A stretch of DNA of 22,570 nt, from the IMG/VR virus record IMGVR_UViG_3300032050_015732, positions 1-22,570 of that record; one strand, given 5' to 3'. The notes under the pieces are model-generated. The model had not been told where the DNA came from. It saw only the letters and a program-made list of their open reading frames with translations, and ran no database searches. This stretch comes from a virus. Position numbers and translations under genes: made by a program. Positions 3,133 to 21,355 of the stretch are shown piece after piece (within the stretch, counting starts at the first letter, position 1; the number at the start of each line of letters is the position of its first letter).

Positions 3133-3677
3133 GCCGCCGTGCCTCAGCCAAGCCAGCCGGCAGCGGCGAACCCCAGACCCCGGATGTGGATCAGGCGTTG
3201 CTGGAGGAGCTGCGCCAGGCGCCACCCAAGCAGGATGCCGATGGGCAGCCCGCCTGGCCGGCGGCGGATCCCAGCCGGCCGGTGGGCAAGGGCAACCCGC
3301 CGCGGGGGCGCCGCAGCCAGACACACAAACCCCGCGCCACCCATATGGAGGTAGAGACGCGTATTGCTGAGGCGCAGCTGTGGATCGCCCAGCGGCTGCC
3401 ATTGGCACAGATCAGGGAAAAAGCAGCCCAGAACTGGGGAATCACCAACATCAAAACGATCAGCCGCTACCTGGCCCTGGCGCGGCAGCGGATGGTGGAG
3501 GAGCTGATCTCCGACCGGCGCCGCCACCAGGCTGAGCAGATCTTTGCGCTGAACGACTGTGCCCGCCGGGCGATGGACGCCGAGCAGTTCAACGCCGCCG
3601 TCGGCGCCTTCCGGGTGATTGCTGAGATCGGCGGTCTGCTGCGGGCACCGATCAAGCCCCCCGAGGCGAAAAGCTGA
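3129..3677 (+). CDS. Terminase small subunit-like DNA-binding protein
   Basis: The start is taken as GTG 3129, overlapping the previous stop; longer versions would run through the upstream gene. The 182-aa protein has a proline-rich, basic, probably disordered N-terminus (1-72), a helix-turn-helix-like region (about 76-118, RIAEAQLWIAQRLPLAQI to TISRYLALARQRMVEEL) and a C-terminal helical segment (about 128-172) that could mediate oligomerisation. Small terminase subunits recognise the packaging site and load the large subunit; they are poorly conserved in sequence, so the call rests on the helix-turn-helix and on position: its stop codon overlaps the start of the large subunit (TGATG at 3675-3679). 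Confidence 0.65.
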   Translation: MSRRASAKPAGSGEPQTPDVDQALLEELRQAPPKQDADGQPAWPAADPSRPVGKGNPPRGRRSQTHKPRATHMEVETRIAEAQLWIAQRLPLAQIREKAAQNWGITNIKTISRYLALARQRMVEELISDRRRHQAEQIFALNDCARRAMDAEQFNAAVGAFRVIAEIGGLLRAPIKPPEAKS

Positions 3678-5314
3678 TGGCGGGTTTGCTGCTGGATCCA
3701 GCCTTCGACCTTTGGGGAGATGCCGGCCTGCTTGGTGCTCCCGATCCAGGCCGCCAGCAGAACGGACCCCAGGCCCCGCAGGCCTTCCGTGATTTCATCG
3801 TGGCCGCTTATCCCGGCTACGCCTTCCACACCTGGGCCGAACGCCTGATTGCCCTGCTGCAGCGCGTGGCTGATGGCGAGCTCAACCGCTTGATCGTTTG
3901 CTGCCCCCCGCGGCTGGGCAAATCACTGCTCGTCTCCAAGCTGTTCCCGGCCTACTGGGTGAGCCGCTACCCCACGCGGTTCTGCGCCATCGCCTCCTAT
4001 TCGGCCGAGCTGGCCTACGCCCATAGCCGTGAGGCACGGCATTACTACCGCGCTGTCGGCCATCCCCTCTCCAAGGACTCCACCGCCGTTGGCAACTGGC
4101 TCACCCCCGAGCGCGGTGGCTGCATCGCCGCCGGCGTGCGCGGGCCGTTCACCGGCAAGGGCTACGCGCTGGGGATCATCGATGACCCCTACAAGGGTCC
4201 AGAAGATGCCAACTCCGCCGGCCAACGCCAGAAGCTGATCGAGTGGTTCCAGTCCGTCTGGCTCACCCGCGCTGAACCGGCACCACATGGGCGCTCGCGA
4301 TGGGGCTTTTCAGGCGCGGCCCAGGTGGTGGTGCTGACCCGCTGGCACCAGGACGATTTGATCGGCTGGCTGCTGGAGCAGGAGAGCGGCGACGCTCCGC
4401 AGCAGTGGCAGGTGCTTAACCTGCCGGCGATTGCGGAACCGCCCCAGCAGCAGATCAAGTTCCCGGCCAGCTGCACCATCGAGCCGGACTGGCGCAAGCC
4501 CGGTGAGCCGCTCTGCCCCGAGCGGTTTCCCCTGCTGGAGCTGGAGCAGATCCGCATCCGCGCCGGCAGTTACTGGTGGAACGCGCTGTACCAGCAGCGC
4601 CCCTCACCGGCGGAGGGTCTGCTGTTTCAACGCGACTGGATCCGCACCATTGCGGGCACCGTTTCTCCAGACGGCCGGGCGGCGCAACGCCCCTTTGCGG
4701 CGGTGGTGCTCAGTTGCGATCTGAGTTTCAAGGGGGGAGCGGAGAACGACTACTGCGGCTTCTGCCTCCTCGGCCTACTGCCGGATCAGGAGGCCCGCCA
4801 CCCGTTGGCCCAGGCCCTGGCACGGGGTGAACAGCTCCACCCCAGTGCTGCCCGCGCGAGCTCACCGGCCGAACCGCAGAGAGACGACAAACACCGGATC
4901 GAGGTGATCTGCAGCCAGCACCACCGGCTCGACCTGCCGGGGGTGATCAACTTCCTCGCTCAGACCTTGGCGTCTCTGGGCAAGGGCCTGAGCCCTGATG
5001 CCGTGCTGATCGAGGACGCCGCCAATGGCCCAGCCGTCTGCCAGTTGCTGCAGCGCCAGATCCCTGGCCTGATTGCTGTGCGGCCCAACGGCAGCAAGGT
5101 GAGCCGCGCCCATGCCGTGGCCCCGTTGCTGGAGGCCGGCCAGCTGGCGTTTCGCAGCGGCAACGAGGCCCTGATCAGCGAGTTGCTGGGTTTTCCCAAC
5201 GGGGCCCATGACGACCTGGTGGATGCCTTCTGCCAGGGCGTGATCTGGCTGCAGAGCCAGCACTGGCGCAGCCAGGGCAAGGCCACGCCACGGCCGCTGC
5301 TGTTTTCCCGCTGA
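3677..5314 (+). CDS. terL: Terminase large subunit
   Basis: All landmark motifs of a phage DNA-packaging motor are visible in this 545-aa protein. The N-terminal ATPase has Walker A PPRLGKS at 77-83, Walker B GIIDDP at 167-171 and the coupling motif TRWHQDD at 221-227. The C-terminal RNase H-like nuclease has Asp348 in LSCDLSFKGG, Asp447 in IEDAANG and the Asp512-Asp513 pair in HDDLVDA. This is the Terminase_6 type of about 500-550 aa, so it appears full length and intact. It translocates DNA into the prohead and cuts the concatemer. The sequence EDANSAGQRQKLIEWFQSVW is also typical of the family. Its start overlaps the small-subunit stop, and the portal gene follows once the sigma gene and the insert are skipped. 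Confidence 0.96.
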   Translation: MAGLLLDPAFDLWGDAGLLGAPDPGRQQNGPQAPQAFRDFIVAAYPGYAFHTWAERLIALLQRVADGELNRLIVCCPPRLGKSLLVSKLFPAYWVSRYPTRFCAIASYSAELAYAHSREARHYYRAVGHPLSKDSTAVGNWLTPERGGCIAAGVRGPFTGKGYALGIIDDPYKGPEDANSAGQRQKLIEWFQSVWLTRAEPAPHGRSRWGFSGAAQVVVLTRWHQDDLIGWLLEQESGDAPQQWQVLNLPAIAEPPQQQIKFPASCTIEPDWRKPGEPLCPERFPLLELEQIRIRAGSYWWNALYQQRPSPAEGLLFQRDWIRTIAGTVSPDGRAAQRPFAAVVLSCDLSFKGGAENDYCGFCLLGLLPDQEARHPLAQALARGEQLHPSAARASSPAEPQRDDKHRIEVICSQHHRLDLPGVINFLAQTLASLGKGLSPDAVLIEDAANGPAVCQLLQRQIPGLIAVRPNGSKVSRAHAVAPLLEAGQLAFRSGNEALISELLGFPNGAHDDLVDAFCQGVIWLQSQHWRSQGKATPRPLLFSR

Positions 5315-5997: not shown

Positions 5998-7521
5998 TCA
6001 TGGGTTCGCCTGAATAAAGTCGCGCATGTCTTCAATTGACTGCCTTAGCTCTGCATCGTTAAACCTTCGGTTATGAGTGTTTTCGGGGTGATGAATTTGA
6101 TGTCGGATGTATTCTGTTAACACCACTTCCTTTTGGATAGTCCTGCCATCTCGACTTGACTGGTTGTAGCGCATGGTTGTTTTACCCGCCCGGTAAGCAG
6201 TCAACAGGCCTTGCTCCTCGATGTAGCCATATAGCTCGTTATGATATTCAAATGATGATTCATCGAACGCGGCAAAATTTACTTCATTTAGACTGGGGTA
6301 TGGAAGCTCTCTTGCGACCACACGTTTTATGTCTGACGCCGCCTGTCCACCAATCAACAGCAGGTTTTCAAATTTAAGCTGTTTGACGACTTCTGGGCTA
6401 TGTGTAGTGAGCAGGATTTGCGTATGACTCACCTGAGACAATGAAATCAGCGACTGAATCAGTGCCCGCTGAAGGTCTGGATGTTGTGACGTCTCTGGCT
6501 CTTCTATTGCGTATACGACACTGGGGAGCGATGCCTCGCGCTGTCGGCGCTCAGCTTCGGCTCGAAAGAAACTGATTAGAACCAATCGCTTGACTCCACT
6601 ACCCCGCTTGTTAATCGGAATATCGTTGTCTCCGGTTATGGCTACGCTCTTGAATACATCAGACCACTTAAGTGATGAGGAATCTGGGATTTGAGGGTTC
6701 AGCGATGACGCAACTGCAGGGTTTAGTTCATTGAGCTTCAACAATGTCTGGGCAGCAACCTGATCAAGGCGATTTTTAACGGTATTTGCGATTCTGCCAA
6801 GTTCAGCCTGGATGCAGGGGTCGCACAGAATTTCCTTCACTGCCAAGCGCATTGGGTCTTGGACTTCGTTGTCACTATCGCTATTTTTTCGGTCGGCTTG
6901 GAACAAGGAGTAAAGCGGCATATATGATTTCAACTGATCCCAGATATTTTTCGCATCAATCTTCCCGACTTCGATATCGATTTCCTGAAGCCTCAGGGTT
7001 TTATGGGCGCCCCAGATGGACTTTCGAATCTCCGAGTTCTTTGTCTTGTCATTGCAGTCAATCGAGAGCTCATTAAGAAGTTCCTTCAACTCCGCCTGCT
7101 TCTTTAAAAGCAAGTCAGCGCAGCCTCTCGCGGTCGGGTGATTGGCCCTGATAAAAACCTTTTCTTTGCCAGCTTTTGGGTACCTTTTAATTAGCTTGAG
7201 AGTTCCTTGCGAAGTGGTTAGGTACTCATCCGAAAGCGTTGTCTGGTTAGTTGCGTCAATTATTATTGAGCTTGGTAGTTCCTCAAACTCAACCCAGATC
7301 TCGATGTCTTCGTCTCCAGCCGCCAAATTGCTCTTGCTAATATCCTCCCTGTCAAGTTTTACACAGCCTTTCCCTTCATTAAAGAAAATGTCCAACGCCT
7401 CCAGGATCGTAGACTTTCCTACGTCGTTCTTGCCCACAAGGACTAACAAATCGGAAGACTCAATCTGGACATGATCAGCATAGCCCCGAAAACCCTTGAT
7501 GCCGATGTTTTTTATTTTCAT
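5998..7521 (-). CDS. OLD/SMC-like AAA ATPase with HEPN-like C-terminus, putative defence
   Basis: This 507-aa protein begins with an ABC/SMC-type ATPase half: MKIKNIGIKGFRGY, then Walker A GKNDVGKS at 30-37. The second half of the ATPase has a signature-like KRGSGVKRLVLIS at 305-317, Walker B SVVYAIEEPET at 334-343 and the H-loop TTHS at 372-375. That is the AAA15/OLD arrangement. I see no Toprim nuclease domain. Instead residues 420-505 form a separate helical domain with TEYIRHQIHHPEN, containing Arg473-x4-His478, the motif of HEPN ribonucleases; this assignment is an inference. Such ATPase-RNase fusions often act in abortive phage defence. The gene is clearly AT-richer than its neighbours and points against them, which suggests recent acquisition as cargo. 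The ATPase part is very sure, the nuclease part tentative. Confidence 0.8.
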   Translation of the reverse strand: MKIKNIGIKGFRGYADHVQIESSDLLVLVGKNDVGKSTILEALDIFFNEGKGCVKLDREDISKSNLAAGDEDIEIWVEFEELPSSIIIDATNQTTLSDEYLTTSQGTLKLIKRYPKAGKEKVFIRANHPTARGCADLLLKKQAELKELLNELSIDCNDKTKNSEIRKSIWGAHKTLRLQEIDIEVGKIDAKNIWDQLKSYMPLYSLFQADRKNSDSDNEVQDPMRLAVKEILCDPCIQAELGRIANTVKNRLDQVAAQTLLKLNELNPAVASSLNPQIPDSSSLKWSDVFKSVAITGDNDIPINKRGSGVKRLVLISFFRAEAERRQREASLPSVVYAIEEPETSQHPDLQRALIQSLISLSQVSHTQILLTTHSPEVVKQLKFENLLLIGGQAASDIKRVVARELPYPSLNEVNFAAFDESSFEYHNELYGYIEEQGLLTAYRAGKTTMRYNQSSRDGRTIQKEVVLTEYIRHQIHHPENTHNRRFNDAELRQSIEDMRDFIQANP

Positions 7522-7742: not shown

Positions 7743-9173
7743 TTGCCACGCCGGCAAAAGCAGGCAGCGCCGACTATCGCTGTGCCGCCTGCGACCGCAC
7801 CAGAACCGCCCCTATGGCCTCTTCACCCCACGCTGGGGGCACTGCTCCCCCGCCTGGACCTGATCCAGGACTGCTGGGACCTCCTCGCAGGACGCAAGGA
7901 GCTCTACCTCCCCCGGGGTGAACGGGAGCCAGAGATCGCCTACCGACGACGGCTGGAGGCGGCTCTGCCTTCCGGCTTCTTTCGCGATGCCCTGCGTACC
8001 TTCGCGGGGATGCTGGCCTCCAGCCACTGGCGTGAGCTGCCGGCATCGCTGCAGGCGGTGATCAGTGATGTGGATGGACGCGGCACCGACCTTGGCGTGT
8101 TCCTCGAACGGGCCGACGTGCTGGTGCTCCGCGATGGGGCAGCACTGATCGGCGTGCTGCCACCGCAGCACCTTTGGCCCAGTGAGGGCGACCGCCAGCA
8201 GGCGCTACGCCGTGGCGATCGCCTCTCGCTGCCGCGTCTTGCTCTTCTGGAGCGGCGCGACGTCCTGAACTGGCACCTGCCAGGCCCCCAGTCCCTGCCG
8301 GATGCGGTCAGCTTCCGGCTGCCGAACCCCAAGGCCCAGGACGCGCCCCTGGAGGCGGATCGACCACAGCATCCGTGGCTCTACGGCTCCTTTGCCCTCG
8401 ATGGCGAGGGGATGAGCATCGAGACCATCGAGCTGGTGGCGGACCCGCAGGCCCCATCAGGCTGGCGACCGCAACGCACGAGATTGCAGTACTACCGGGG
8501 CATCAGCCAGCTGCCGTTGATTTGGTACGCCAGTGATGGCGCTGCCTTTGGCGAGGGCGATCTGCCTCATCTGGGTCTGGCGCATCAGTACCTCAACCAC
8601 TTCCGCTGCCAGAGCGACTACCAGGAGCTGCTGTACCGAACAGCCCTGCCGGTGGGTGTACGTACAGGGGTCGTCGGCCCCATGGGCAGTGGCACCAGCG
8701 AGCCGGTGGTGCTGGGCCCCAACAGCGTGATCGATCTGCCCGACGGGGCCAGCTTCCAGTTCGTGGAAATCCAGGCCCGCTCCCTGGCCGAGCACCGCGC
8801 TTGGCTGGAATCCCTCGACCAGGGCATGCGTCGTGACGCCCTGATCCCATCAGGCGCCCAAGGGGCGCCACGCACCGCCACCGAGATCTCTCTGGCGGCA
8901 TCCCAGGCCTATGCGCTGCTGCAGAGCCAGGCGATCCAGAAGGCCTCGATGTTCTCCTCTCTGCTGCAGCACTGGTGCGCAATCACCGGTGAACCAGTTC
9001 CCGTGCAGCAGGGTCCGGCGTTGCTGGTTGAGATCAGCCCGTTGGCCCCAGCATCCAAGCCGCAACCCACCGTTGCTGAAATTCTGCAGCTGCATGAGCG
9101 CGGCATCGTCAGCGAGCAGGCTCTGCGGCAATGGCTGGGGGATTTGGCCGGTGTGGCGCCGGCTTCTGCATGA
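7743..9173 (+). CDS. Portal protein, DUF4055-like
   Basis: The 476-aa protein resembles DUF4055-type phage portal proteins: a conserved N-terminal segment IQDCWDLLAGRKELYLPRGE (41-60) followed by AYRRRLEAALPSGFFRDALRTFAGML, a beta-rich middle, and a helical C-terminal part with EHRAWLESLDQGMRRDALIPSG and ATEISLAASQAYALLQSQA, matching portal stem/crown helices. The portal is the dodecameric ring through which the terminase pumps DNA. The start is uncertain: TTG 7743 has no clear ribosome site, and the coding-like composition begins right at the end of the AT-rich insert, so the original start may have been displaced. GTG 7782 is an alternative. It overlaps the next gene by 4 bp (ATGA). Confidence 0.8.
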   Translation: MPRRQKQAAPTIAVPPATAPEPPLWPLHPTLGALLPRLDLIQDCWDLLAGRKELYLPRGEREPEIAYRRRLEAALPSGFFRDALRTFAGMLASSHWRELPASLQAVISDVDGRGTDLGVFLERADVLVLRDGAALIGVLPPQHLWPSEGDRQQALRRGDRLSLPRLALLERRDVLNWHLPGPQSLPDAVSFRLPNPKAQDAPLEADRPQHPWLYGSFALDGEGMSIETIELVADPQAPSGWRPQRTRLQYYRGISQLPLIWYASDGAAFGEGDLPHLGLAHQYLNHFRCQSDYQELLYRTALPVGVRTGVVGPMGSGTSEPVVLGPNSVIDLPDGASFQFVEIQARSLAEHRAWLESLDQGMRRDALIPSGAQGAPRTATEISLAASQAYALLQSQAIQKASMFSSLLQHWCAITGEPVPVQQGPALLVEISPLAPASKPQPTVAEILQLHERGIVSEQALRQWLGDLAGVAPASA

Positions 9174-9697
9174 CCATCAGCAGCAATGCATTGAGCCCCT
9201 CAAGTGGTGGGACGTGGCAACAGCAAGACCAAGAGGCCATTCGCCAATGCCTGGCGCTGCCCGCCACCGTTCCCTGCCTGGATGCCATCGGCCGGGCGAT
9301 GGCAGATCTGCTGCGCCAACACCCGGCCGGGGTGTTGAGTGCCCGGGCCCTGCTGGATGCGGTGGCCCTAATCGATCAACAGCTGCTGAATGGTGGCTGC
9401 GAGCAGGAGCAGGCGATCCAGAAGCGCAGCCACTCGGGACCGATTGCCGGCTCGGTGGCCGCAGCTGGTGATGCACCCCTGCAGAAAGCAGATGTGATCG
9501 CCTACGACACAGCGCTGCTGCGCGAAGAAAGCGAGACCACTTACGCCAGCCCCAGTTCGCCCGCGATGGCCCTGCTGCGCCAGCGGCGCCGCTACGCCGA
9601 GCAGCTGCTGTTGCTCCTGCCTGCGCTCAACAGCTGGATGCAGTTCACCGCCGAGGCCGCAGGGCTGCTGGGAACCACGCCGATGCTGCGGGGTTGA
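9170..9697 (+). CDS. Unknown head-module protein
   Basis: ATG 9170 overlaps the portal stop codon, the typical translational coupling of this operon; longer upstream starts would run inside the portal gene. The 175-aa product is largely helical. It contains CLDAIGRAMADLLRQHPAGVLSA in the first half and a C-terminal SPAMALLRQRRRYAEQLLLLLPALNSWMQF helix with a hydrophobic run too short and polar-flanked for a confident membrane segment. No known family is recognised. By position it could be a head-completion, connector or minor capsid protein. The gene after it starts 3 bp downstream. Confidence 0.65.
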   Translation: MTISSNALSPSSGGTWQQQDQEAIRQCLALPATVPCLDAIGRAMADLLRQHPAGVLSARALLDAVALIDQQLLNGGCEQEQAIQKRSHSGPIAGSVAAAGDAPLQKADVIAYDTALLREESETTYASPSSPAMALLRQRRRYAEQLLLLLPALNSWMQFTAEAAGLLGTTPMLRG

Positions 9698-10337: not shown

Positions 10338-11198
10338 ATGGCCACTGCTTCCGCAACCCCCATCACCAGCACCACCCGCAGCGGAGGTGATGGCAACGAA
10401 CTCCTGGACCTCCAGGGCCCTGAGACCAGCGAGCAGGACAGCACGCAGGCCGAGCACAGCACCGGCTCGGATGCGGCAACCACTGCCAATGAATCCACCC
10501 AGGGATCCAGCGGCGATGGCCTCAGCGAGGCCCTCAAGGCCGAGCGCCGCCGCAGCAACAACCTTGAAAAGGAGCTGCGCGGGCTGCGGCAGCAGCTGAC
10601 CCGCTTCTCGGAGATCAATCCCGAGGAGTACGCCCGTCTGCAGGAGGCCGAACGCCAAAAGCAGCACCTCGAGCAGCAGCTGGAGCTGCGGGAGCGCCAG
10701 ATGGAGGAGGCCGCCGCCAAACGGGTGGCCGCCGTCAGTGCTGAACGCGACGCTGCCCATGAGCGGGTGCAGGAGCTGCGCAAGGAGCGACTGCTGGAGC
10801 GGGCCTTCTCAGAAGCTGAGGGCCGCACCGGCGGCGACGGGCGCGGCACCTTCTTTCAGGTGTTCCGCTCCATGCTGTGGGACTGCTTCCGGCTGGGCAA
10901 TGGCAAAGACGGCGGCGATGTGCTCGAACCCCTCGACGGCCATGGCCAGCCACTGCTCGGCGACGACGGCCGGCCGATGACCACAGCCGACTACCTCGAT
11001 CAGCTGCGCATCCACCCCGTGTATGGCTTTCTCTTCCAGCAGCGCGGCGCCATGGGCACGGGCGCTTTGCCCGCGGGCACTGCAGCCGGCAGCCTTGGCT
11101 CCAGCGGTTTTGGGGAGGTGATCAATCCGCAGGCGATGAGCGCCAGTGAGCTCTACCGGGCTGGCTTTGTCAGCAATGGCCGCATGGCCCGGCACTGA
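10338..11198 (+). CDS. Capsid scaffolding protein
   Basis: The 286-aa protein has a low-complexity, Ser/Thr/Asp-rich N-terminus (1-60), a long charged coiled coil (about 65-155, rich in Glu, Arg and Gln, including LKAERRRSNNLEKELRGLRQQ) and a more compact C-terminal part with TFFQVFRSMLWDCF and TTADYLDQLRIHPVYGFLF. An acidic flexible start plus coiled coil is the hallmark of phage scaffold proteins, which guide capsid assembly and then leave the prohead. Scaffold genes normally sit directly before the major capsid gene; here about 3.9 kb of unrelated genes separate them. Start ATG 10338 follows a 70-bp gap that may hold a promoter. The assignment rests on architecture and position. Confidence 0.75.
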   Translation: MATASATPITSTTRSGGDGNELLDLQGPETSEQDSTQAEHSTGSDAATTANESTQGSSGDGLSEALKAERRRSNNLEKELRGLRQQLTRFSEINPEEYARLQEAERQKQHLEQQLELRERQMEEAAAKRVAAVSAERDAAHERVQELRKERLLERAFSEAEGRTGGDGRGTFFQVFRSMLWDCFRLGNGKDGGDVLEPLDGHGQPLLGDDGRPMTTADYLDQLRIHPVYGFLFQQRGAMGTGALPAGTAAGSLGSSGFGEVINPQAMSASELYRAGFVSNGRMARH

Positions 11199-11259
11199 AC
11201 GCTTCTGCCGGCCGTTCCTACGGTGCCATCACCAAGGGGGTCGCCCCAGACAGCAAGCG

Positions 11260-12144
11260 ATGGCCAGGCAAGAACAGCGGTTGGCTGCCAACGTTCCTGG
11301 GCCCTTCTATGTCGACAGCACCTGCATCGACTGCGGCACCTGCTGGCAGTTCGATCCGCTGCACTACGCCCCGACCGGCAGCAGTTCGCGGGTGCAGCGC
11401 CAACCGGATGGCGCTGCCGAACTGCGGCAGGCACTGCTTGCCTTGCAGGCCTGCCCGGTGGCTGCGATCGGAACCAGCCGTGAACTGTTGGCTCAGATGC
11501 CCATGGATGGCTTTCCGGTTCTGATCACGCGCCATGCAGCTGGGGACGTCTACTACTGCGGTTGGGCATCACGGCGCAGCTTTGGTGCCAGCAGCTGGTT
11601 GGTGGTGCGACCTGACGGCAACGTGCTGATTGATGTGCCGCGCTGGAGTGCACTCCTCGCCCGGCGCATCAAGGATTTGGGCGGTCTGCAGCGCATCGTG
11701 CTGACGCACCGCGATGACGTGGCCGATCACGCGCGCTGGGCCCGGGCATTCGGAGCCGAACGCTGGATCCACGCGGCCGACGCCGATGCCGCCCCCCAGG
11801 CCGAGCATCAGCTGAGCGGCAGCGATGCCCTGCACCTGGATGCGGACCTGCAGTTGATCCCCACTCCTGGTCACACAGCTGGCTCGATGGTGGCGGTGCT
11901 TGGAGGGTGCGAACAGGTGCTGTTCAGCGGCGATCACCTCTGGTGGAACCCGGCGCATCAAGCGATCGTGGCTTCCAAGACGTATTGCTGGTGGAACTGG
12001 AGTGCGCAGCTGCGCTCCGTCGAGCGGCTGCTGGATCTCGATGTGGCCTGGCTGCTGCCTGGTCATGGCCATCAGCATCAGTTCACGCCCGGCCAGTGGC
12101 GAGCGTCCTTGGAGCAGACGCTGGCGTACGCCGCTGCGCAGTGA
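11260..12144 (+). CDS. Ferredoxin-like / metallo-beta-lactamase fold hydrolase
   Basis: ATG 11260 is chosen because the protein signature begins there; a longer reading would overlap the scaffold gene. The 294-aa protein starts with a small [4Fe-4S] ferredoxin-like domain: Cys22, Cys25 and Cys28 (CIDCGTC) with Cys65-Pro66 as the fourth ligand. A metallo-beta-lactamase domain follows, with THRDDVADH at 149-157 in place of the common HxHxDH, GHTAGS at 204-209, SGDH at 223-226 and GHG at 268-270. This fusion is known from cyanobacteria and plastid-bearing eukaryotes; its substrate is unknown to me. It looks intact. A host-type metabolic gene between scaffold and capsid genes is unusual and implies cargo capture or rearrangement. 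Confidence 0.85.
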   Translation: MARQEQRLAANVPGPFYVDSTCIDCGTCWQFDPLHYAPTGSSSRVQRQPDGAAELRQALLALQACPVAAIGTSRELLAQMPMDGFPVLITRHAAGDVYYCGWASRRSFGASSWLVVRPDGNVLIDVPRWSALLARRIKDLGGLQRIVLTHRDDVADHARWARAFGAERWIHAADADAAPQAEHQLSGSDALHLDADLQLIPTPGHTAGSMVAVLGGCEQVLFSGDHLWWNPAHQAIVASKTYCWWNWSAQLRSVERLLDLDVAWLLPGHGHQHQFTPGQWRASLEQTLAYAAAQ

Positions 12145-12153
12145 AGAGCAAGC

Positions 12154-12177
12154 AAAAAGGCCCGGCAAGGCCGGGCC
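12154..12177 (-). terminator. Rho-independent terminator for the 12192 gene
   Basis: GGCCCGGC and GCCGGGCC form an 8-bp perfect stem at 12159-12177. On the minus strand it is followed by a run of five Ts (the A-run at 12154-12158), the standard intrinsic terminator layout. It lies between two convergent genes and could also slow transcripts of the hydrolase gene coming from the other side. Confidence 0.8.
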
Positions 12178-12191
12178 AGGAGGCCGCAGCC

Positions 12192-12407
12192 TCAAAGCAC
12201 CGAGACGGTGCCGAGGCGCTTGGCGGCCAGCTTGCGGGCCAGCTGATGGGCCAGCTCAGCTGGAATGAAACGCGGCTTCTTCACGGGCTTGCCGCGGCGG
12301 CCATAGAAGACCGTGACGCGCTCAGCAGCAGCGACCTTGAGCCCAGCTGGATAGCTGTGCAGCACCAGCTGACGGATCGGACAGGCCAGAGGAGCAGAGG
12401 AGGCCAT
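12192..12407 (-). CDS. Small basic protein, paralogue of the 21861 gene
   Basis: ATG 12407 begins a 71-aa protein of unknown function. It shares a clear pattern with the 72-aa product of 21861-22079: CPIR, then a His within a few residues, a VxVFYxRRG / LRVLFLDREG strand, and PxFxPxE(L/V)AxxLA near the end. The shared pattern and equal size indicate a common ancestor. The predicted fold is a short beta sheet plus a C-terminal helix; the basic charge suggests nucleic-acid or protein binding, but I know no function. A strong terminator follows. Upstream it has the same nested inverted-repeat leader as its paralogue, at nearly the same distance from the start codon. Confidence 0.7.
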   Translation of the reverse strand: MASSAPLACPIRQLVLHSYPAGLKVAAAERVTVFYGRRGKPVKKPRFIPAELAHQLARKLAAKRLGTVSVL

Positions 12408-12456
12408 GGGATAGAGGCGAGGAACACCTGTCCCATCGCCCCGGACGACACGCCGT

Positions 12457-12495
12457 GGCAAGGGTCGGCGTAGCCGACTCGCGTCAGCCCTTGCC
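12457..12495 (-). promoter_or_regulatory. Nested inverted-repeat leader element A
   Basis: GGCAAGGG at 12457-12464 pairs with CCCTTGCC at 12488-12495, enclosing a second perfect hairpin TCGGC-gta-GCCGA at 12465-12477. The near arm lies 49 nt before the start codon at 12407. Similar structures precede the genes starting at 21103 and 22079. Another hairpin, CAGGGC-gaa-GCCCTG, lies a little further upstream. Confidence 0.5.
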
Positions 12496-12625
12496 AGGGC
12501 GGGGCGAGCAGGGCGAAGCCCTGCGCTCCGGGGCAGTGCTGGTGCTTCCTAGCCGACCCCATGGCCGGACGGCTGCCGGGGCCTGGTTGAGACAGCAGCC
12601 GCAACACCGGCTGTAGAACGTGGCG

Positions 12626-13300
12626 ATGACGGCTCCTGAGAACGCCTACAGCCAGCGCTACACCGATGCCCTGGGCTGGGCCGCTGAGCTGCACCGCGGT
12701 CAGCGTCGCAAGGGCAAGCCGGTTCCCTACATCGCCCACCTCATTGCCGTGAGTGCTCTGGTGTGGGAAGACGGCGGCAGCGAAAACCAGGCGATTGCGG
12801 CTCTGCTGCACGACGCCATAGAGGATGCGGGTCAGAGCCAGGCCTCGATTGCCGCACGCTTTGGCGAGGAGGTGGCCGCGATCGTGGTGGACTGCACCGA
12901 CACAGCTGGCCCCGTGGAGCCCGGCGCCGAAAAGGAACCCTGGCTGCTGCGCAAGACCCGCTATCTCGCCTCGCTGGAGGAGAAGCCGCAGACCTCTTTG
13001 CTGGTGACGGCAGCCGACAAGGCCCACAACGCCCGCGACCTGGTGCTCGATGCCCGCAGCCACCCTGGTGGCTGGGAGCGTTTCACGGCGGGGCTGGAGG
13101 GCAGCGCCTGGTATCTGCTGCGCGTTCAGCAGGCCCTGAGCCATCGCTTGCCGGAGAGTCGCTCCACCGCCCTACTGGCAGAAGCTGTGCAAGAACTGCT
13201 GAGCAGCGAGCCCTACCGGCGCCTGGTGCCCCATGGCATCGCTCCGGCGGTGTGGGCCGCCAGCTACCTGGAGCGGCCAGAGGCCCATCCCCAGCCTTGA
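12626..13300 (+). CDS. SpoT/MESH1-like HD phosphohydrolase
   Basis: The 224-aa protein has the HD fold of RelA/SpoT-type (p)ppGpp hydrolases. His38 is in YIAHLIAVSAL, the His62-Asp63 pair is in ALLHDAIEDAG, the helix SIAARFGEEVAAIVVDCTD follows, and Asp131 with Asn135 are in AADKAHNARDLV. These are the metal and substrate positions of the family. No synthetase, TGS or ACT domain is present, so it resembles small alarmone hydrolases. ATG 12626 is chosen; GTG 12620 is an in-frame alternative. In a phage-like element such an enzyme might lower the stress alarmone during production of particles, but it could equally be a stray host gene. The substrate is inferred from family resemblance only. Confidence 0.85.
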   Translation: MTAPENAYSQRYTDALGWAAELHRGQRRKGKPVPYIAHLIAVSALVWEDGGSENQAIAALLHDAIEDAGQSQASIAARFGEEVAAIVVDCTDTAGPVEPGAEKEPWLLRKTRYLASLEEKPQTSLLVTAADKAHNARDLVLDARSHPGGWERFTAGLEGSAWYLLRVQQALSHRLPESRSTALLAEAVQELLSSEPYRRLVPHGIAPAVWAASYLERPEAHPQP

Positions 13301-13339: not shown

Positions 13340-13597
13340 TCAGTTGTCTGGATCGCGGCGCCGGGCACTGACGATGCTGCCGCCACCGAGCAAGGCCAGG
13401 CTGGTTCCAACCGCCGCCTCAAAGGTCTGCTGCAGGTTCTCGGCGTAGCTGCTGCACACCGGGCCAAGCCGCCGCTGCATACCAAGCCAAAAGCAACCGC
13501 CCAGGCCAGCGGCATAGAGCGCGAACTGGGCGATGAACACCCCAGCCACTGCCCGCAATAGGAAGCGCTCGCGATCAAATCCTTCCCCACCAGCCAT
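13340..13597 (-). CDS. Holin-like small membrane protein
   Basis: The 85-aa protein has a short charged N-terminus (MAGGEGFDRERFLLR), a first hydrophobic segment at about 12-40 (rich in Ala, Val, Phe and Gly), a polar loop with QRRLGPVCSSYAENLQQ, a second shorter hydrophobic segment at about 60-77 and a charged tail ending RRRDPDN. Size, two membrane spans and charged tail fit class II holins. It lies 17 bp downstream of the peptidase gene on the same strand, as expected of a lysis pair. The sequence itself matches no holin family that I recognise, so the call depends on context. A generic membrane protein remains possible. Confidence 0.6.
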   Translation of the reverse strand: MAGGEGFDRERFLLRAVAGVFIAQFALYAAGLGGCFWLGMQRRLGPVCSSYAENLQQTFEAAVGTSLALLGGGSIVSARRRDPDN

Positions 13598-13614: not shown

Positions 13615-14379
13615 TCAGGGATGGCAGGTGAGCAGCCAGCCGGTGCCGGGGCCATCGGCCTGCCAGCGCGGCAGCCAGTTCTTCCAGCTGTAGTGCTGCC
13701 CTGCTCCATTGGTGTTGGCGGTGTAGCCGCCATGGACCAGGTCGGCCTCACCGTTGGGGTCGTTGTGGATGGCGACTGTCTCGGTGAAACCGATCACCAC
13801 GCTCCAGTGACCGCCGCCGCTGGGTGCAGAAGCGGGGCCGTGGTGCAGCCAGCCCACTGCGACCGGTCGCCCCAGGTTGATCTGTTCCTCCAGCGTTGCG
13901 CGCTGGCCGTTGGTGGCGAAGTGGGCGGTCAGCCCCAGGGATCGCAACGCCGCCAACTGAGCTTCTGCCGAGGTGGTGTCGCCATAGCGGGCACGGATGA
14001 CGTTGTAGGCGTCATCGCCACTGACCTTGCCCCAGAAGCGGGCGAGCATGGCGCAGCTGCTGGAGAAGCACTCGCGGTAGCCAGTGCCTGAAGCGTTGTC
14101 GTTCTGGTTCTCCCAGGCCACCGGCAGCGGATTGGCATGGGCCGGGGCCGGCGGCGCCGAGGAGAAGGTCTGCCGCCAGGGGGCTGTCTCGGTGAGGACC
14201 TGTGGATCGGCCGCCATGACCGCCAGCCGCAACTGCTCGATGCCGTCCAGTTGCTGAGGCTGAGCCTTCCAGTGGTCCCAGAACTGACGCCAGCGCTCAG
14301 CGCTGAACGGCGCCTGGTCACCAGGCGCGACGGCAGCAGGGGTAGTCGCGTGGATAGCCGTTGTGGGCGTTGTCGTCAT
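13615..14379 (-). CDS. C39-like cysteine peptidase, probable endolysin
   Basis: The 254-aa protein carries a papain-fold C39-like domain at about 85-250. Cys104 in YRECFSSSCAML is the likely nucleophile, His191 in GGGHWSVVIGF the general base and Asp207 in HNDPNG the third residue; GRPVAVGWLHHGP at 170-182 is also typical of this group. Residues 1-80 are a low-complexity start and a helical segment with no signal peptide. Proteins of this type occur in phages, where I infer they cut peptide bonds in the cell wall at lysis. The holin-like gene follows 17 bp downstream. The pair points opposite to the structural operon, so it needs its own promoter, probably in 14380-14443. Confidence 0.75.
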   Translation of the reverse strand: MTTTPTTAIHATTPAAVAPGDQAPFSAERWRQFWDHWKAQPQQLDGIEQLRLAVMAADPQVLTETAPWRQTFSSAPPAPAHANPLPVAWENQNDNASGTGYRECFSSSCAMLARFWGKVSGDDAYNVIRARYGDTTSAEAQLAALRSLGLTAHFATNGQRATLEEQINLGRPVAVGWLHHGPASAPSGGGHWSVVIGFTETVAIHNDPNGEADLVHGGYTANTNGAGQHYSWKNWLPRWQADGPGTGWLLTCHP

Positions 14380-14443: not shown

Positions 14444-14977
14444 CTAGAGATCCTGCTGCTTTTCGTTGGTAACAAAGCCGATTGTTCGCTTCGGCTTCTC
14501 CTCTGTTATTTCGACAGTGGTGCAAAGAAGCTGAATGGATGCCTGGTGAGCAAGAAACATGCAAACAGTGCCGTCAAATCCAAGCGTGCCCTCAATCCTG
14601 ACACAATGAAAGCTTTCGGCGGTCATCCGCCGAACTTGCACGATCTGTCCGTTCGGCAAAAACGCTATTACGGCGGGCTGATATTTTTTCGAAGATTCGT
14701 CGGCCGTGGCATCTAATTCCTTTCTCCACAGGGCAACTGTTGCTGCCATGCTTTCAACGATCGCTTCGGAGGACTGATAAGAATTTGCCTCCTGGGGCGT
14801 TGGAATCCTGGGTGGCCTCAAAGCTTCGATATCAATTCGAGCGGGCTGCGAGGCCACACCTGCGAGAGGCGAGCTGAAACCTGCGCTTATTCGCTCCATC
14901 GTCCTGATGTTGTCCACCGCATCTTTCAAAGGGCTCTCAGAAAGAAACTTTTTTAGAAAATCTCGCGAGTCGGGCAT
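14444..14977 (-). CDS. Unknown AT-rich orphan protein
   Basis: The 177-aa product is not recognised. The first 45 residues are helical and amphipathic (PDSRDFLKKFLSESPLKDAV), followed by a proline-rich linker (about 50-64) and a C-terminal beta-rich half (KYQPAVIAFLPNGQIVQVRRM; ESFHCVRIEGTLGFDGTVCMFLAHQASIQLLC). No signal peptide or membrane span is seen. Base composition and codon use are clearly AT-richer than the flanking genes, as with the ATPase gene at 5998-7521, which suggests separate acquisition. A TAGAAT hexamer on the minus strand at 14999-15004, about 22 bp before the start, could be a -10 box. A defence or superinfection-exclusion role would fit the position but has no sequence support. 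Confidence 0.65.
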   Translation of the reverse strand: MPDSRDFLKKFLSESPLKDAVDNIRTMERISAGFSSPLAGVASQPARIDIEALRPPRIPTPQEANSYQSSEAIVESMAATVALWRKELDATADESSKKYQPAVIAFLPNGQIVQVRRMTAESFHCVRIEGTLGFDGTVCMFLAHQASIQLLCTTVEITEEKPKRTIGFVTNEKQQDL

Positions 14978-15107: not shown

Positions 15108-16037
15108 ATGGGCCTCACCCTGATCGAGGCAGCCAAATACGAGCACCGGCTTGAGCACCTCGCTGTGCTCAAGACCTTCTCGGAGGGCGAACTGCTCGCC
15201 CGGCTGCCGTTCATGAACATCGCCGGCAGCGGCCTCTTCTATTCCGCCGAGCAGGAACTGCCCTCGGTGGGCTTCCGCGCCGTGAACGAGGGCTACACCC
15301 AGAGCTACGGCGTGGTGGATCAGCGCGCAGAAGCGGTGCACCTCTTTGGTGGTGACGTGGATGTGGACCGCTCGATCGTGGACCTGATGGGCCCGGAGGC
15401 CCGCGCCAGCCAGATCGAGATGAAGGTGCGCTCGATGCGGTTGACGCTGGAGGCGACCGTGATCAACGGCGACACCGCCAGCAACCCCCGCGCCTTCGAC
15501 GGCTTGAGCAAGCGCCTGCCGCCCGGCAACCCAATGGCGATCAACAACGCCACCGGTGCCATCCCCGGTGCACCGCTGAACTTCGATCGGCTTGATGAGC
15601 TGATCGATTCGGTGAATGCCTACGGCGGCAGCAAGGTGCTGGTGATGAGCAAGGCGATGCGCCGCCAGCTAAATGCCCTCGCCCGCGCCTCCATCGGCGG
15701 TGGTGTGTACCAGACCAGCACCAACTCCTACGGGATGACGGTGCACCGCTACCAGGACTGCGACATCTTGACGGTGGACCGCGATGCCCAGGGCGTCGAG
15801 GTGATGGGCTACGACGAGGCGGGCGGCACCAGCTCGATCTACTGCTGCACCTTTGGCGATCAGGGCGTGACCGGTCTGCAAGGTCCGTTCCAGGGGCGCT
15901 ACGGCATCTCGGTGCGGGACCTGGGCGAGGTGCCCGATGCCCCGGTGTTCCGCACCCGCGTCGATTGGTACGTCGGCTTTGCCGTGCTGCAGCCCCGCGC
16001 CGCCGGCCGACTGTTCAACATCACCCCCGCTGCCTGA
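15108..16037 (+). CDS. Major capsid protein, HK97-fold type
   Basis: The 309-aa protein has the size and segment order of HK97-fold coat proteins without a long N-terminal delta domain. An initial helical arm (MGLTLIEAAKYEHRLEHLAVLK) is followed by an E-loop-like beta region (LPFMNIAGSGLFYSAEQELPSVGFRAVNEG), a P-domain spine with helix RASQIEMKVRSMRLTLEATVINGD (about 99-122) and an A-domain with SKVLVMSKAMRRQLNAL and HRYQDCDILTVDRDAQG. The phrase INGDTASNPRAFDGLSKRL is characteristic of phage coat proteins. It forms the shell that the terminase fills with DNA. It heads a tight run of six genes to 18795. No protease gene accompanies it, so assembly would depend on the scaffold protein alone. 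Confidence 0.85.
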   Translation: MGLTLIEAAKYEHRLEHLAVLKTFSEGELLARLPFMNIAGSGLFYSAEQELPSVGFRAVNEGYTQSYGVVDQRAEAVHLFGGDVDVDRSIVDLMGPEARASQIEMKVRSMRLTLEATVINGDTASNPRAFDGLSKRLPPGNPMAINNATGAIPGAPLNFDRLDELIDSVNAYGGSKVLVMSKAMRRQLNALARASIGGGVYQTSTNSYGMTVHRYQDCDILTVDRDAQGVEVMGYDEAGGTSSIYCCTFGDQGVTGLQGPFQGRYGISVRDLGEVPDAPVFRTRVDWYVGFAVLQPRAAGRLFNITPAA

Positions 16038-19271: not shown

Positions 19272-19748
19272 TCAGGGCAGTCGATGCGTCAGTTGCTGCA
19301 GGCGTTCTGAGGCCTGTGTGGCTTCCTGCAAGAGCTGATCCCAGTCGTAGGGCGGATGGCCGCTGGCCAGCATCGACTGGAACACCCGGTAGGCATCGCT
19401 TTTGCTGCCATAGGCGCGCTTGGTGTCGGTGTCGTTGACCCAGCCCAACACGATCAGCCGTGAGCGGGTGTGAAACCGGAAGAACAAGCGGTACTGCTGA
19501 AAGAACTTGGCGCGTCGCCAGTGGCGATGCGCAGCGCCAAGGGTTGATCCCTGCTGAACCTCCTTGCGGCTGGGGTCCTGGGGGATGTCTTGGAGCATCA
19601 GGCGGGTGATGGCCGCCAGGCGTTTGCTGGCGTTTTTGCTGCCATAGCCCTGTGGATCCTTGGCGCGCAACGCCTCCACCTCAACGATCAACGCGTCCAG
19701 CTGATCCAGAAACAAGGGGTGCGCATAGATCGTCCATCCGTTGATCAC
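19272..19748 (-). CDS. yhaV: YhaV-type RNase toxin
   Basis: The 158-aa protein matches YhaV toxins of type II toxin-antitoxin systems in length and motifs: INGWTIYAHPLFLDQL at the N-terminus, AHRHWRRAKFFQQYRLFFRF (73-92) and LGWVNDTDTKRAYGSKSDAYRVFQ (101-124), the conserved RelE-like catalytic core with its Arg and Lys residues, then GHPPYDWDQLL. YhaV cuts mRNA, partly on ribosomes. The gene overlaps the antitoxin gene by 4 bp (ATGA), with the antitoxin first, the normal order for prlF-yhaV. It appears intact, so the module is probably active and may stabilise the element in the host. Confidence 0.92.
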   Translation of the reverse strand: MINGWTIYAHPLFLDQLDALIVEVEALRAKDPQGYGSKNASKRLAAITRLMLQDIPQDPSRKEVQQGSTLGAAHRHWRRAKFFQQYRLFFRFHTRSRLIVLGWVNDTDTKRAYGSKSDAYRVFQSMLASGHPPYDWDQLLQEATQASERLQQLTHRLP

Positions 19749-20116
19749 GCGTCGTCTGGCAGGGCTGCCTCCAGATCAACCTCGATGCCGCCCACCAGAT
19801 CCTGCAGCTGCTCAACCAGCTCGGCGCTGATGGGTTGCAGCCGCTCGGGATGGTTGGCGATGTCCTGCTCCAGCAGCGCCAGAAAGGGAGCCAGTGCCGG
19901 GTCGTCGTTGTCTGAATCTGCGCTGACCCGTTCCAGCACCACCTCACCGTTGGCGCGGAAGGCGTAGCGGATGCGGTCGCGCTTGCGCAAACCAAGAGCC
20001 CGCCGCACCGGTTGCGGCACGGTGGTTTGATAGCGATCCGTGAGCGCCGATTCCACCTCGTCCTGGGGGGTGCCCAGGGAGGCGCCAGCAACATCAGGAG
20101 TGGAAAGAGGAGCCAT
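19745..20116 (-). CDS. prlF: PrlF-type AbrB-fold antitoxin
   Basis: ATG 20116 gives a 123-aa protein with an AbrB/SpoVT swapped-hairpin DNA-binding domain at about 22-64 (SALTDRYQTTVPQPVRRALGL, then DRIRYAFRANGEVVLERV), typical of PrlF (SohA). The C-terminal part (75-123: FLALLEQDIANHPERLQPIS, then acidic ELVEQLQDLVGG) would bind and block the toxin. The toxin overlaps its end. AbrB-fold antitoxins repress their own operon, and a palindrome lies about 30 bp upstream of this start. Longer upstream reading is possible but would run through that operator. Confidence 0.88.
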   Translation of the reverse strand: MAPLSTPDVAGASLGTPQDEVESALTDRYQTTVPQPVRRALGLRKRDRIRYAFRANGEVVLERVSADSDNDDPALAPFLALLEQDIANHPERLQPISAELVEQLQDLVGGIEVDLEAALPDDA

Positions 20117-20146
20117 CAGGCCGCCCGCTGAACCTGACACCAAAGT

Positions 20147-20160
20147 AATGCAGGTGCATT
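20147..20160. promoter_or_regulatory. Palindromic operator candidate for the toxin-antitoxin operon
   Basis: AATGCAGGTGCATT is a perfect 6-bp inverted repeat with a 2-bp centre, 30 bp upstream of the antitoxin start. It lies in a slightly AT-richer stretch that also has a CTTTGG run. This is where a PrlF-type repressor would bind. A distantly similar ATGCA/TGCAT repeat occurs at 22461-22475. Confidence 0.5.
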
Positions 20161-20309
20161 GCCTTGGCGAGGTTGGCGGCTCTGCGCACACGCCTCGGCT
20201 CCTTCCGATGGTCGCTCCTGTGCCTTTGGTTGCGCGGTGTTGTCACCCTTTTCACTGGGGCAGCGGCTCAGTCAGATCAGGCTGGTGGCCTGCATTTTCA
20301 GCTCACGCC

Positions 20310-20473: not shown

Positions 20474-21103
20474 TCAGCCCCCGCCGACCAGCTGCAGGCG
20501 CAGGGCTGCGATGGCCTTCTTCTGGGCACGCTGCACGGCCATGGCACTGATGCCCAGCTTGAGCCCAGCGGCCCGTAGCGAGAGACCCTCCAGCAGGGTG
20601 AGCCGCAACGCGGTGGCCTGGGCAGCAGGCAGCTGCTCGACCAGCTGCTCCAAGGCCAGCTCCTCAGCGCCAAAGCCTGAGGCCAGCTCGGCTGCAGGAG
20701 CTTCCAGCTGATCAAGCAAGGAGTTCTCGCCTTCCACCTGGACATCGAGGCTGACGTGGCCCAGCGGGCAGGTGCCCTTCTCGTGCTGCCGGCGGGAGAT
20801 GCGCACCAGCCGCACCCGATCGCGCAGGTGGTGCTGCAGCGCCCCGGTGATGCAGCGGCGCAGATAGGGCTCCGCCGGCTCGCCGGGCATGCAGCGCGGC
20901 ACCGAGCGCAGCAGGGCCTCTCGGGCCACCTGGATCAGATCATCCCGCTCCACCAGCGGAAACAGGCGCCGGGCGATGACGGAGGCGATGGCATCAGCCA
21001 GTGGCAGGTGCTGCAGCACCAGGGCATTGCGCGCAGCAAGGGATGCAGCCGGCAGGGCAGAGGCCTGCGGCTGGCGGCGGGACGGGGAAGCAAGGGCAGC
21101 CAT
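20474..21103 (-). CDS. Sigma-70 family factor, regions 2-4
   Basis: ATG 21103 is preferred: upstream in-frame sequence is poor coding and overlaps a leader structure. The 209-aa protein has region 2 (about 24-95, NALVLQHLPLADAIASVIAR, DDLIQVAREALLRSV, PYLRRCITGALQHHLRD), a short region 3 (VRISRRQHEKG) and region 4 (about 150-203, LVEQLPAAQATALRLTLLEGLSLRAAGLKLGISAMAVQRAQKKAIAALR), a helix-turn-helix for the -35 box. It is shorter than main sigma factors and lacks region 1. Compared with the sigma-like gene at 5336, this one retains region 4. It may control element genes in the right arm. The upstream leader resembles those of three small genes. Confidence 0.85.
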   Translation of the reverse strand: MAALASPSRRQPQASALPAASLAARNALVLQHLPLADAIASVIARRLFPLVERDDLIQVAREALLRSVPRCMPGEPAEPYLRRCITGALQHHLRDRVRLVRISRRQHEKGTCPLGHVSLDVQVEGENSLLDQLEAPAAELASGFGAEELALEQLVEQLPAAQATALRLTLLEGLSLRAAGLKLGISAMAVQRAQKKAIAALRLQLVGGG

Positions 21104-21152
21104 TGGCGGGACGGCACAGAACCCCACCCCCAACGGCCGGCCGGATCGCCGC

Positions 21153-21208
21153 GGCAAGGACGCCCCGCCGAGGCAGGGCCTCAAGGGGCGCCGGGCCTGA
21201 TCCTTGCC
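21153..21208 (-). promoter_or_regulatory. Nested inverted-repeat leader element C
   Basis: GGCAAGGA at 21153-21160 pairs with TCCTTGCC at 21201-21208; inside, CGCCCC (21161-21166) pairs with GGGGCG (21185-21190), and GAGGC with GCCTC (21170-21182). The near arm lies 49 nt before the sigma start at 21103, the same distance as element A from its gene. Confidence 0.5.
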
Positions 21209-21355
21209 ATGGCGTGAGGGCTGGCCAACGGGATGCGGTGGGTGTGCGCCGGCCCACTGGCGGACCATTCCCCTGACGCCGCAGGAGCCGGCGACGCCGC
21301 AGCTGCCCAACAGAAGCGTGCTCGGCATGGAAACCGCAACGGCCTGGCATCAACG

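Follow-up and report, generated by a model that had tools for sequence, protein, structure and literature searches.

How does a metabolic gene come to stand inside the head-assembly cluster of a phage-like element, where its close relatives have a small phage gene? The question is raised by an IMG/VR virus record, the whole of which (22,570 bases; the window) was analysed here. It is best read as a piece of an element of freshwater Cyanobium/Synechococcus that encodes a capsid and resembles a prophage or a satellite. The gene (11260–12144, plus strand) encodes a protein of 294 amino acids, in which a 4Fe-4S ferredoxin domain is fused to a metallo-beta-lactamase domain (Fd-MBL).

Gene order and the Fd-MBL protein

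The plus strand of the window carries the genes of the large terminase (TerL; 3677–5314; phrog_38, 1.4e-87), the portal protein (7743–9173; phrog_145, 1.4e-32), the head scaffolding protein (10338–11198; phrog_206, 1.1e-16) and the major capsid protein (15108–16037; phrog_212, 3e-70). Open reading frames, Pfam and PHROG matches agree in placing Fd-MBL between the scaffold and capsid genes on the same strand, as originally predicted. That description was incomplete, in that five further open reading frames separate Fd-MBL from the capsid gene; they lie on both strands, and either have relatives in other copies of the element or are of gene size. The nearest is s89m (12192–12461, minus strand), a small conserved gene with tblastn matches in many loci and no family in Pfam or NCBIfam. 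It is followed by a RelA/SpoT-type HD_4 phosphohydrolase gene (12620–13300, plus strand; Pfam HD_4, 4.8e-19), the product of which is possibly a small alarmone hydrolase, and by the small gene s85m (13340–13597, minus strand), which has tblastn matches in other loci and no family in Pfam. An endolysin-like, C39-type peptidase gene (13615–14379, minus strand; phrog_10051 endolysin, 1.7e-73) and a 177-residue open reading frame with no match in Pfam, PHROG, NCBIfam or PADLOC (14444–14977, minus strand) complete the series.

Fd-MBL starts 61 nt past the scaffold stop codon on the same strand, and hence the two genes are likely co-transcribed; no terminator was called between them, and a promoter scan of the window called none. 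A terminator-like hairpin with an 8-pair all-GC stem and a TTTTT run (12159–12177, minus strand) would serve s89m. The hairpin is kept in the alignment of relatives, though the scan that called it found 5 sites in the window against 3.2 in shuffled sequence, which makes it only suggestive. Elsewhere in the window, an ATPase gene of lower GC content (about 47%; 5998–7521, minus strand) lies between a sigma-like gene and the portal gene. Its top PADLOC match is AriA (4.7e-73) and it also resembles Old/GajA, which makes it a candidate defence gene at another variable spot. A YhaV-PrlF toxin-antitoxin pair (19272–20191, minus strand) and a sigma-70-type gene (20474–21328, minus strand) were seen towards the right end.

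The Fd-MBL reading frame (294 codons) is open and intact between the ATG at 11260 and the stop at 12144, and both domains exceed the curated Pfam cut-offs (Fer4_13, 5.9e-16; Lactamase_B, 6.4e-9). This ATG is the likely start, because the majority of the aligned orthologues share these first residues (MAR); two of 13 begin later. An upstream GTG at 11146 was ruled out for the same reason. In an alignment of 36 of the 37 extracted orthologues, from which a broken one (L124) was excluded, the cysteines C22, C25, C28 and C65 are invariant, as are H150, D152, D153, D156, H157, H205, D225 and H269. The canonical metal motif of classical metallo-beta-lactamase (MBL) hydrolases is HxHxDH, and all 36 rows have HRDDVADH where it is expected. 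Hence, the claim that all expected ligands are intact holds for the protein's own family and fails for the textbook hydrolases. With both domains in one protein, the four cysteines and HRDDVADH, the protein belongs with the picocyanobacterial Fer4_13–MBL fusions; it lacks the HxHxDH of zinc hydrolases of the glyoxalase II or beta-lactamase type, and it falls far under the cut-offs of the curated NCBIfam MBL models (e.g. 26 of 201 bits for GloB).

Two more distant, plasmid-borne relatives have lost the third cysteine and H157 while retaining HRDDV; their gene neighbours gave no functional clue. Searches against solved structures returned weak matches only, such as 2p97 (E 0.0047 in one search and 1e-5 in another), and a structure prediction from two sequences was disregarded at a mean pLDDT of 33. 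As a guess from the sequence, the ferredoxin fusion and the HRDDVADH motif would fit a metalloenzyme with a redox link, and not a zinc hydrolase of the classical kind. Flavodiiron proteins carry out redox chemistry at a carboxylate-rich site, and by analogy the carboxylate-rich site beside the ferredoxin domain suggests, again as a guess, similar chemistry here.

The scaffold–capsid slot and its cassettes

Scaffold and capsid genes had been expected to be almost always adjacent, so that Fd-MBL might mark a structural cluster that was broken up. Related loci were collected by a capsid protein search of IMG/VR (33 loci) and by a search of one-genome-per-species contigs with a 10-sequence capsid alignment, from which the best 80 of 81 were used, all titled cyanobacterial. 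Altogether, 115 records were examined (the window and L002–L115). In 62 of them the search located a scaffold gene that precedes the capsid gene and shares its strand; it found none in that position in the other 53, where contigs end or the gene is too divergent or located elsewhere. In all 62 ordered loci the two genes are 1211–9432 bp apart, with or without Fd-MBL, and therefore Fd-MBL was rejected as the cause of the separation. Adjacency was confirmed for the cyanophage PSS2 (gap of about 190 bp; capsid protein 45% identical), but it does not describe this element family, and the idea of a broken cluster is not supported. Every related locus examined with both genes in order has extra, variable DNA at the site. 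The best explanation is that the interval is a long-standing variable slot, bordered on the left by the scaffold gene, and scaffold–capsid adjacency is thus an unsafe rule for declaring a cluster broken.

The gap is usual in this family, and Fd-MBL is the unusual passenger. The 62 slots comprise 56 distinct interval sequences, one of which holds Fd-MBL. Three marker genes were looked for behind the scaffold; the closest one was s94 in 28 loci, s128 in 23 and Fd-MBL in three, and eight loci had none. The three Fd-MBL rows (window, L002 and L024) are a single sequence. In eight of the s128 loci, s128 stands 560–677 bp behind the scaffold. The HD_4 gene is present in 10 of the 62 slots (8 distinct). 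Other cargo in the slot includes DoxX, PemK, PIN, Fic and S24 proteins, a PDC-M18 pair and YccF. The DoxX-family membrane protein was seen in nine loci, one of which was scanned (e.g. L062, 7568–7966, minus strand), and the PDC-M18A/B pair (L019, 6294–7957, minus strand) is a candidate defence pair.

The junctions of the Fd-MBL segment can be placed by comparison with the closest relatives (L038, L072, L004, L037 and L007), to which the window is homologous up to 11201–11202 and again from 12152. The flanks are 89–95% identical on both sides, with one block of L037 at 99%; between them lies s94 in the five relatives and Fd-MBL in the window. The scaffold tail codons from about 11157 resemble those of Cyanobium sp. 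FGCU6 (see below) and not those of the s94-type relatives. Hence, the exchanged cassette spans approximately 11157–12152 (plus strand; left edge imprecise), and comprises the final scaffold codons, the 61-nt spacer and Fd-MBL, about 1 kb, in place of s94. Conserved DNA resumes on the right at the hairpin and s89m, which closes the first part of the slot. A change of scaffold tail goes with a change of the gene behind it: the scaffold ends in FVSNGRMARH before Fd-MBL, in FALNGRSPRS before s94 in the closest relatives and in FAVNGRGARR before s128 in many loci. There is tail variation inside the s94 group and inside the s128 group as well, so that part of this co-variation is plain lineage. The simplest reading would be recombination between two element copies, guided on the left by the conserved scaffold 3' end and on the right by the conserved terminator/s89m stretch; in the lineage of the window, such an exchange would have placed a different scaffold tail and Fd-MBL where s94 stood.

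The element itself was characterized from joined stretches of four genomes, which share one common gene order. In the one copy scanned against PHROGs (G004), an integrase, a regulator, a single-stranded DNA-binding protein, a helicase and a primase are followed by TerL, sigma, portal, scaffold, slot, capsid and a collagen-like fibre, with TerL, portal, scaffold and capsid assigned by similarity to the window. This fibre is the only tail-type gene that PHROGs recognised, several small element genes being without a family. The scaffold, capsid, gp087 and lysozyme of PSS2 match element records (lysozyme gp098 in 36), whereas its fibre, tail, tape-measure and baseplate proteins match none. The 25 element-bearing genomes have between one and seven capsid matches each, some of them fragments. 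The element is possibly satellite-like. Seven full-length capsid matches of this family were seen in Cyanobium Cruz-8D1 (G008). Synechococcus SynAce01 (NZ_CP018091.1; L100 and L109) has two capsid genes, neither at the two prophage loci given in the accessible part of its genome paper (PMC6337551). A BrxL-like gene (5e-275) lies a few kb behind the fibre gene in L194 (9675–11699, minus strand; G004:C9:29675-31699), and with the large genes beyond it probably indicates a BREX system, inside the element or close to it.

Origin of the gene and rival explanations

Some match to Fd-MBL is present in 148 of 201 genomes from the family of G001; 63 of the 148, among the matches listed, reach E ≤1e-60 (some partial), and those beyond are weak MBL paralogues. 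By comparison of these sequences, the orthologues are patchy, single-copy picocyanobacterial genes. A true orthologue is present in 10 of the 25 element-bearing genomes (one with stops), and the other 15 have none or a weak paralogue only; among 19 further genome handles, two of which belong to the 25, there was a strong match in two more (one partial) and one broken copy. No conserved host neighbour emerged over 25 orthologue loci. The commonest neighbour at chromosomal loci is an integron-integrase-type gene (8 of 25), the only one scanned being at 8499–9485 on the minus strand of L144 (TIGR02249, 2.4e-137). Capsid-cluster genes were absent from nine of the first 10 orthologue stretches, all but FGCU6, and from 36 short orthologue loci, with a single weak s85m-like match, beside L164, as the exception. 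No match was found in 50,697 phage records. IMG/VR holds one other contig with the gene, identical to the window and perhaps from the same sample, and a literature search covering titles and abstract openings, with subscription papers mostly beyond reach, returned nothing on this element family or on phage-borne Fd-MBL.

The second case is that of the isolate Cyanobium sp. FGCU6, and only these two are independent. Its Fd-MBL is 91% identical to that of the window. Ahead of it lies what is left of a scaffold gene, interrupted by stops and frame changes and with the C-terminal end retained; s89m and then YccF lie downstream. The block of scaffold end, spacer, Fd-MBL and s89m is 82% identical to window positions 10881–12239. 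About 9 kb separate this copy from an open capsid gene upstream, and it lies past the fibre gene, flanked by p18841 and a sigma-factor gene; it is thus outside the scaffold–capsid slot and at a distance from the intact scaffold, and appears to belong to another copy of the element. A host locus holding the only orthologue amid conserved host neighbours would have spoken against a carried gene; the FGCU6 copy is the only orthologue of its genome, but its neighbours are element genes. YccF was tried as synteny shared by FGCU6 and FGCU52, and was dismissed since it also occurs in element loci, inside the slot in L054 and beside s89m in L061; therefore, YccF may itself be cargo. A tree of 36 rows, which does not place the donor, joins the window and FGCU6 (100/99) among chromosomal orthologues; the two element-associated copies thus form a clade of their own. 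The dN/dS between the two is 0.157, similar to TerL (0.144), demonstrating purifying selection over the entire split and not only over time within the element. Pairs of TerL, portal, scaffold, HD and capsid genes gave about 0.08–0.14, excluding an out-of-frame scaffold comparison with L037.

The reading as a host-type gene on a phage-like carrier is borne out by a gene that is intact, constrained and on the same strand directly behind the scaffold. We consider it probable that Fd-MBL is cargo, like a moron or auxiliary metabolic gene (AMG), and that cassette exchange moves it in an element of prophage or satellite type. Its ancestor would be a picocyanobacterial gene that is single-copy and patchily retained, and it would supply a gene missing from most of the element-bearing hosts examined. 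We infer this direction of transfer, as well as any expression and benefit of the gene. Counted against the cargo reading are its rarity, the position of the FGCU6 copy outside the slot and the genome of L036. The contig of L036 is 95–100% identical to the window from the capsid gene to the sigma factor; its fragmented metagenome-assembled genome has no Fd-MBL match, the slot region lying outside the sequence covered.

An erroneous join of a host piece to a viral contig, which might be suspected since the window and its one identical contig are both metagenome-derived, is highly improbable, because the isolate FGCU6 has the same join of scaffold end, spacer and Fd-MBL on a 348-kb contig; moreover, the right border runs seamlessly into conserved element DNA. 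It is also quite improbable that the element is an eroding, defective prophage beside whose surviving scaffold ordinary host DNA was brought by rearrangement. The decayed scaffold fragment in FGCU6 is what such a history would leave, the other orthologue loci examined are, with few exceptions, chromosomal and without capsid-cluster genes, and PSS2-like relic prophages are described for marine Synechococcus in the accessible text of PMC2784084. Yet TerL, portal, scaffold, capsid and Fd-MBL are all open in the window, the element gene pairs are constrained, the exchange is exact at the borders of the slot, which conserved element genes flank left and right, and the same scaffold-end/Fd-MBL join occurs in two genomes.

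Expression of Fd-MBL along with the late operon, as an auxiliary metabolic gene, is plausible, as had been suggested. A rival reading, in which the element transcribes it with the scaffold to aid infection or assembly, e.g. as redox support in the lytic phase, appears unlikely. It would account for the shared strand, the 61-nt distance free of a called terminator and the scaffold tail that varies with the next gene; a cassette junction alone, however, would give such co-variation, FGCU6 keeps Fd-MBL apart from its intact scaffold, and orthologues are present in genomes and loci without element genes. A broader form of the cargo reading is offered tentatively, as a possibility that we hold somewhat doubtful. 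It supposes widespread, multi-copy, capsid-encoding, tail-less satellites of freshwater picocyanobacteria with an exchangeable cargo socket behind the scaffold, between copies of which cassettes including the scaffold C-terminal tail are swapped; Fd-MBL would be a ferredoxin-linked, carboxylate-rich, possibly di-iron redox enzyme so delivered. If the exchange reading is true, it would provide a concrete route by which metabolic and defence genes move among picocyanobacteria.

Comparison with known systems

The chromosomal Fer4_13–MBL genes (e.g. FGCU52 and L117) encode the same domains, four cysteines and HRDDVADH at 59–75% identity to the window in the loci aligned, and differ in lying at loci without capsid-cluster genes. 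Morons and AMGs are familiar cargo of prophages and cyanophages. Fd-MBL is like them in being an intact host-type gene among virion genes, outside the core of its relatives, on a virus-like carrier and missing from related copies, with the FGCU6 copy apparently elsewhere in its own element. It is unlike them in standing where a small gene otherwise adjoins the 3' end of the scaffold, and in having come in together with the tail codons of the scaffold. The siphovirus PSS2 resembles the element in its capsid, scaffold and lysozyme, and differs in its short scaffold–capsid gap and its full tail module. With its own integrase, replication, packaging and capsid genes in the G004 copy and no recognised tail module, the element is similar in gene content to the capsid-forming PICIs (cf-PICIs) as described in the accessible part of PMC10690885. 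It also resembles the tycheposons of Prochlorococcus (named in PMC10187409), which are likewise cargo-carrying, integrating elements of picocyanobacteria.
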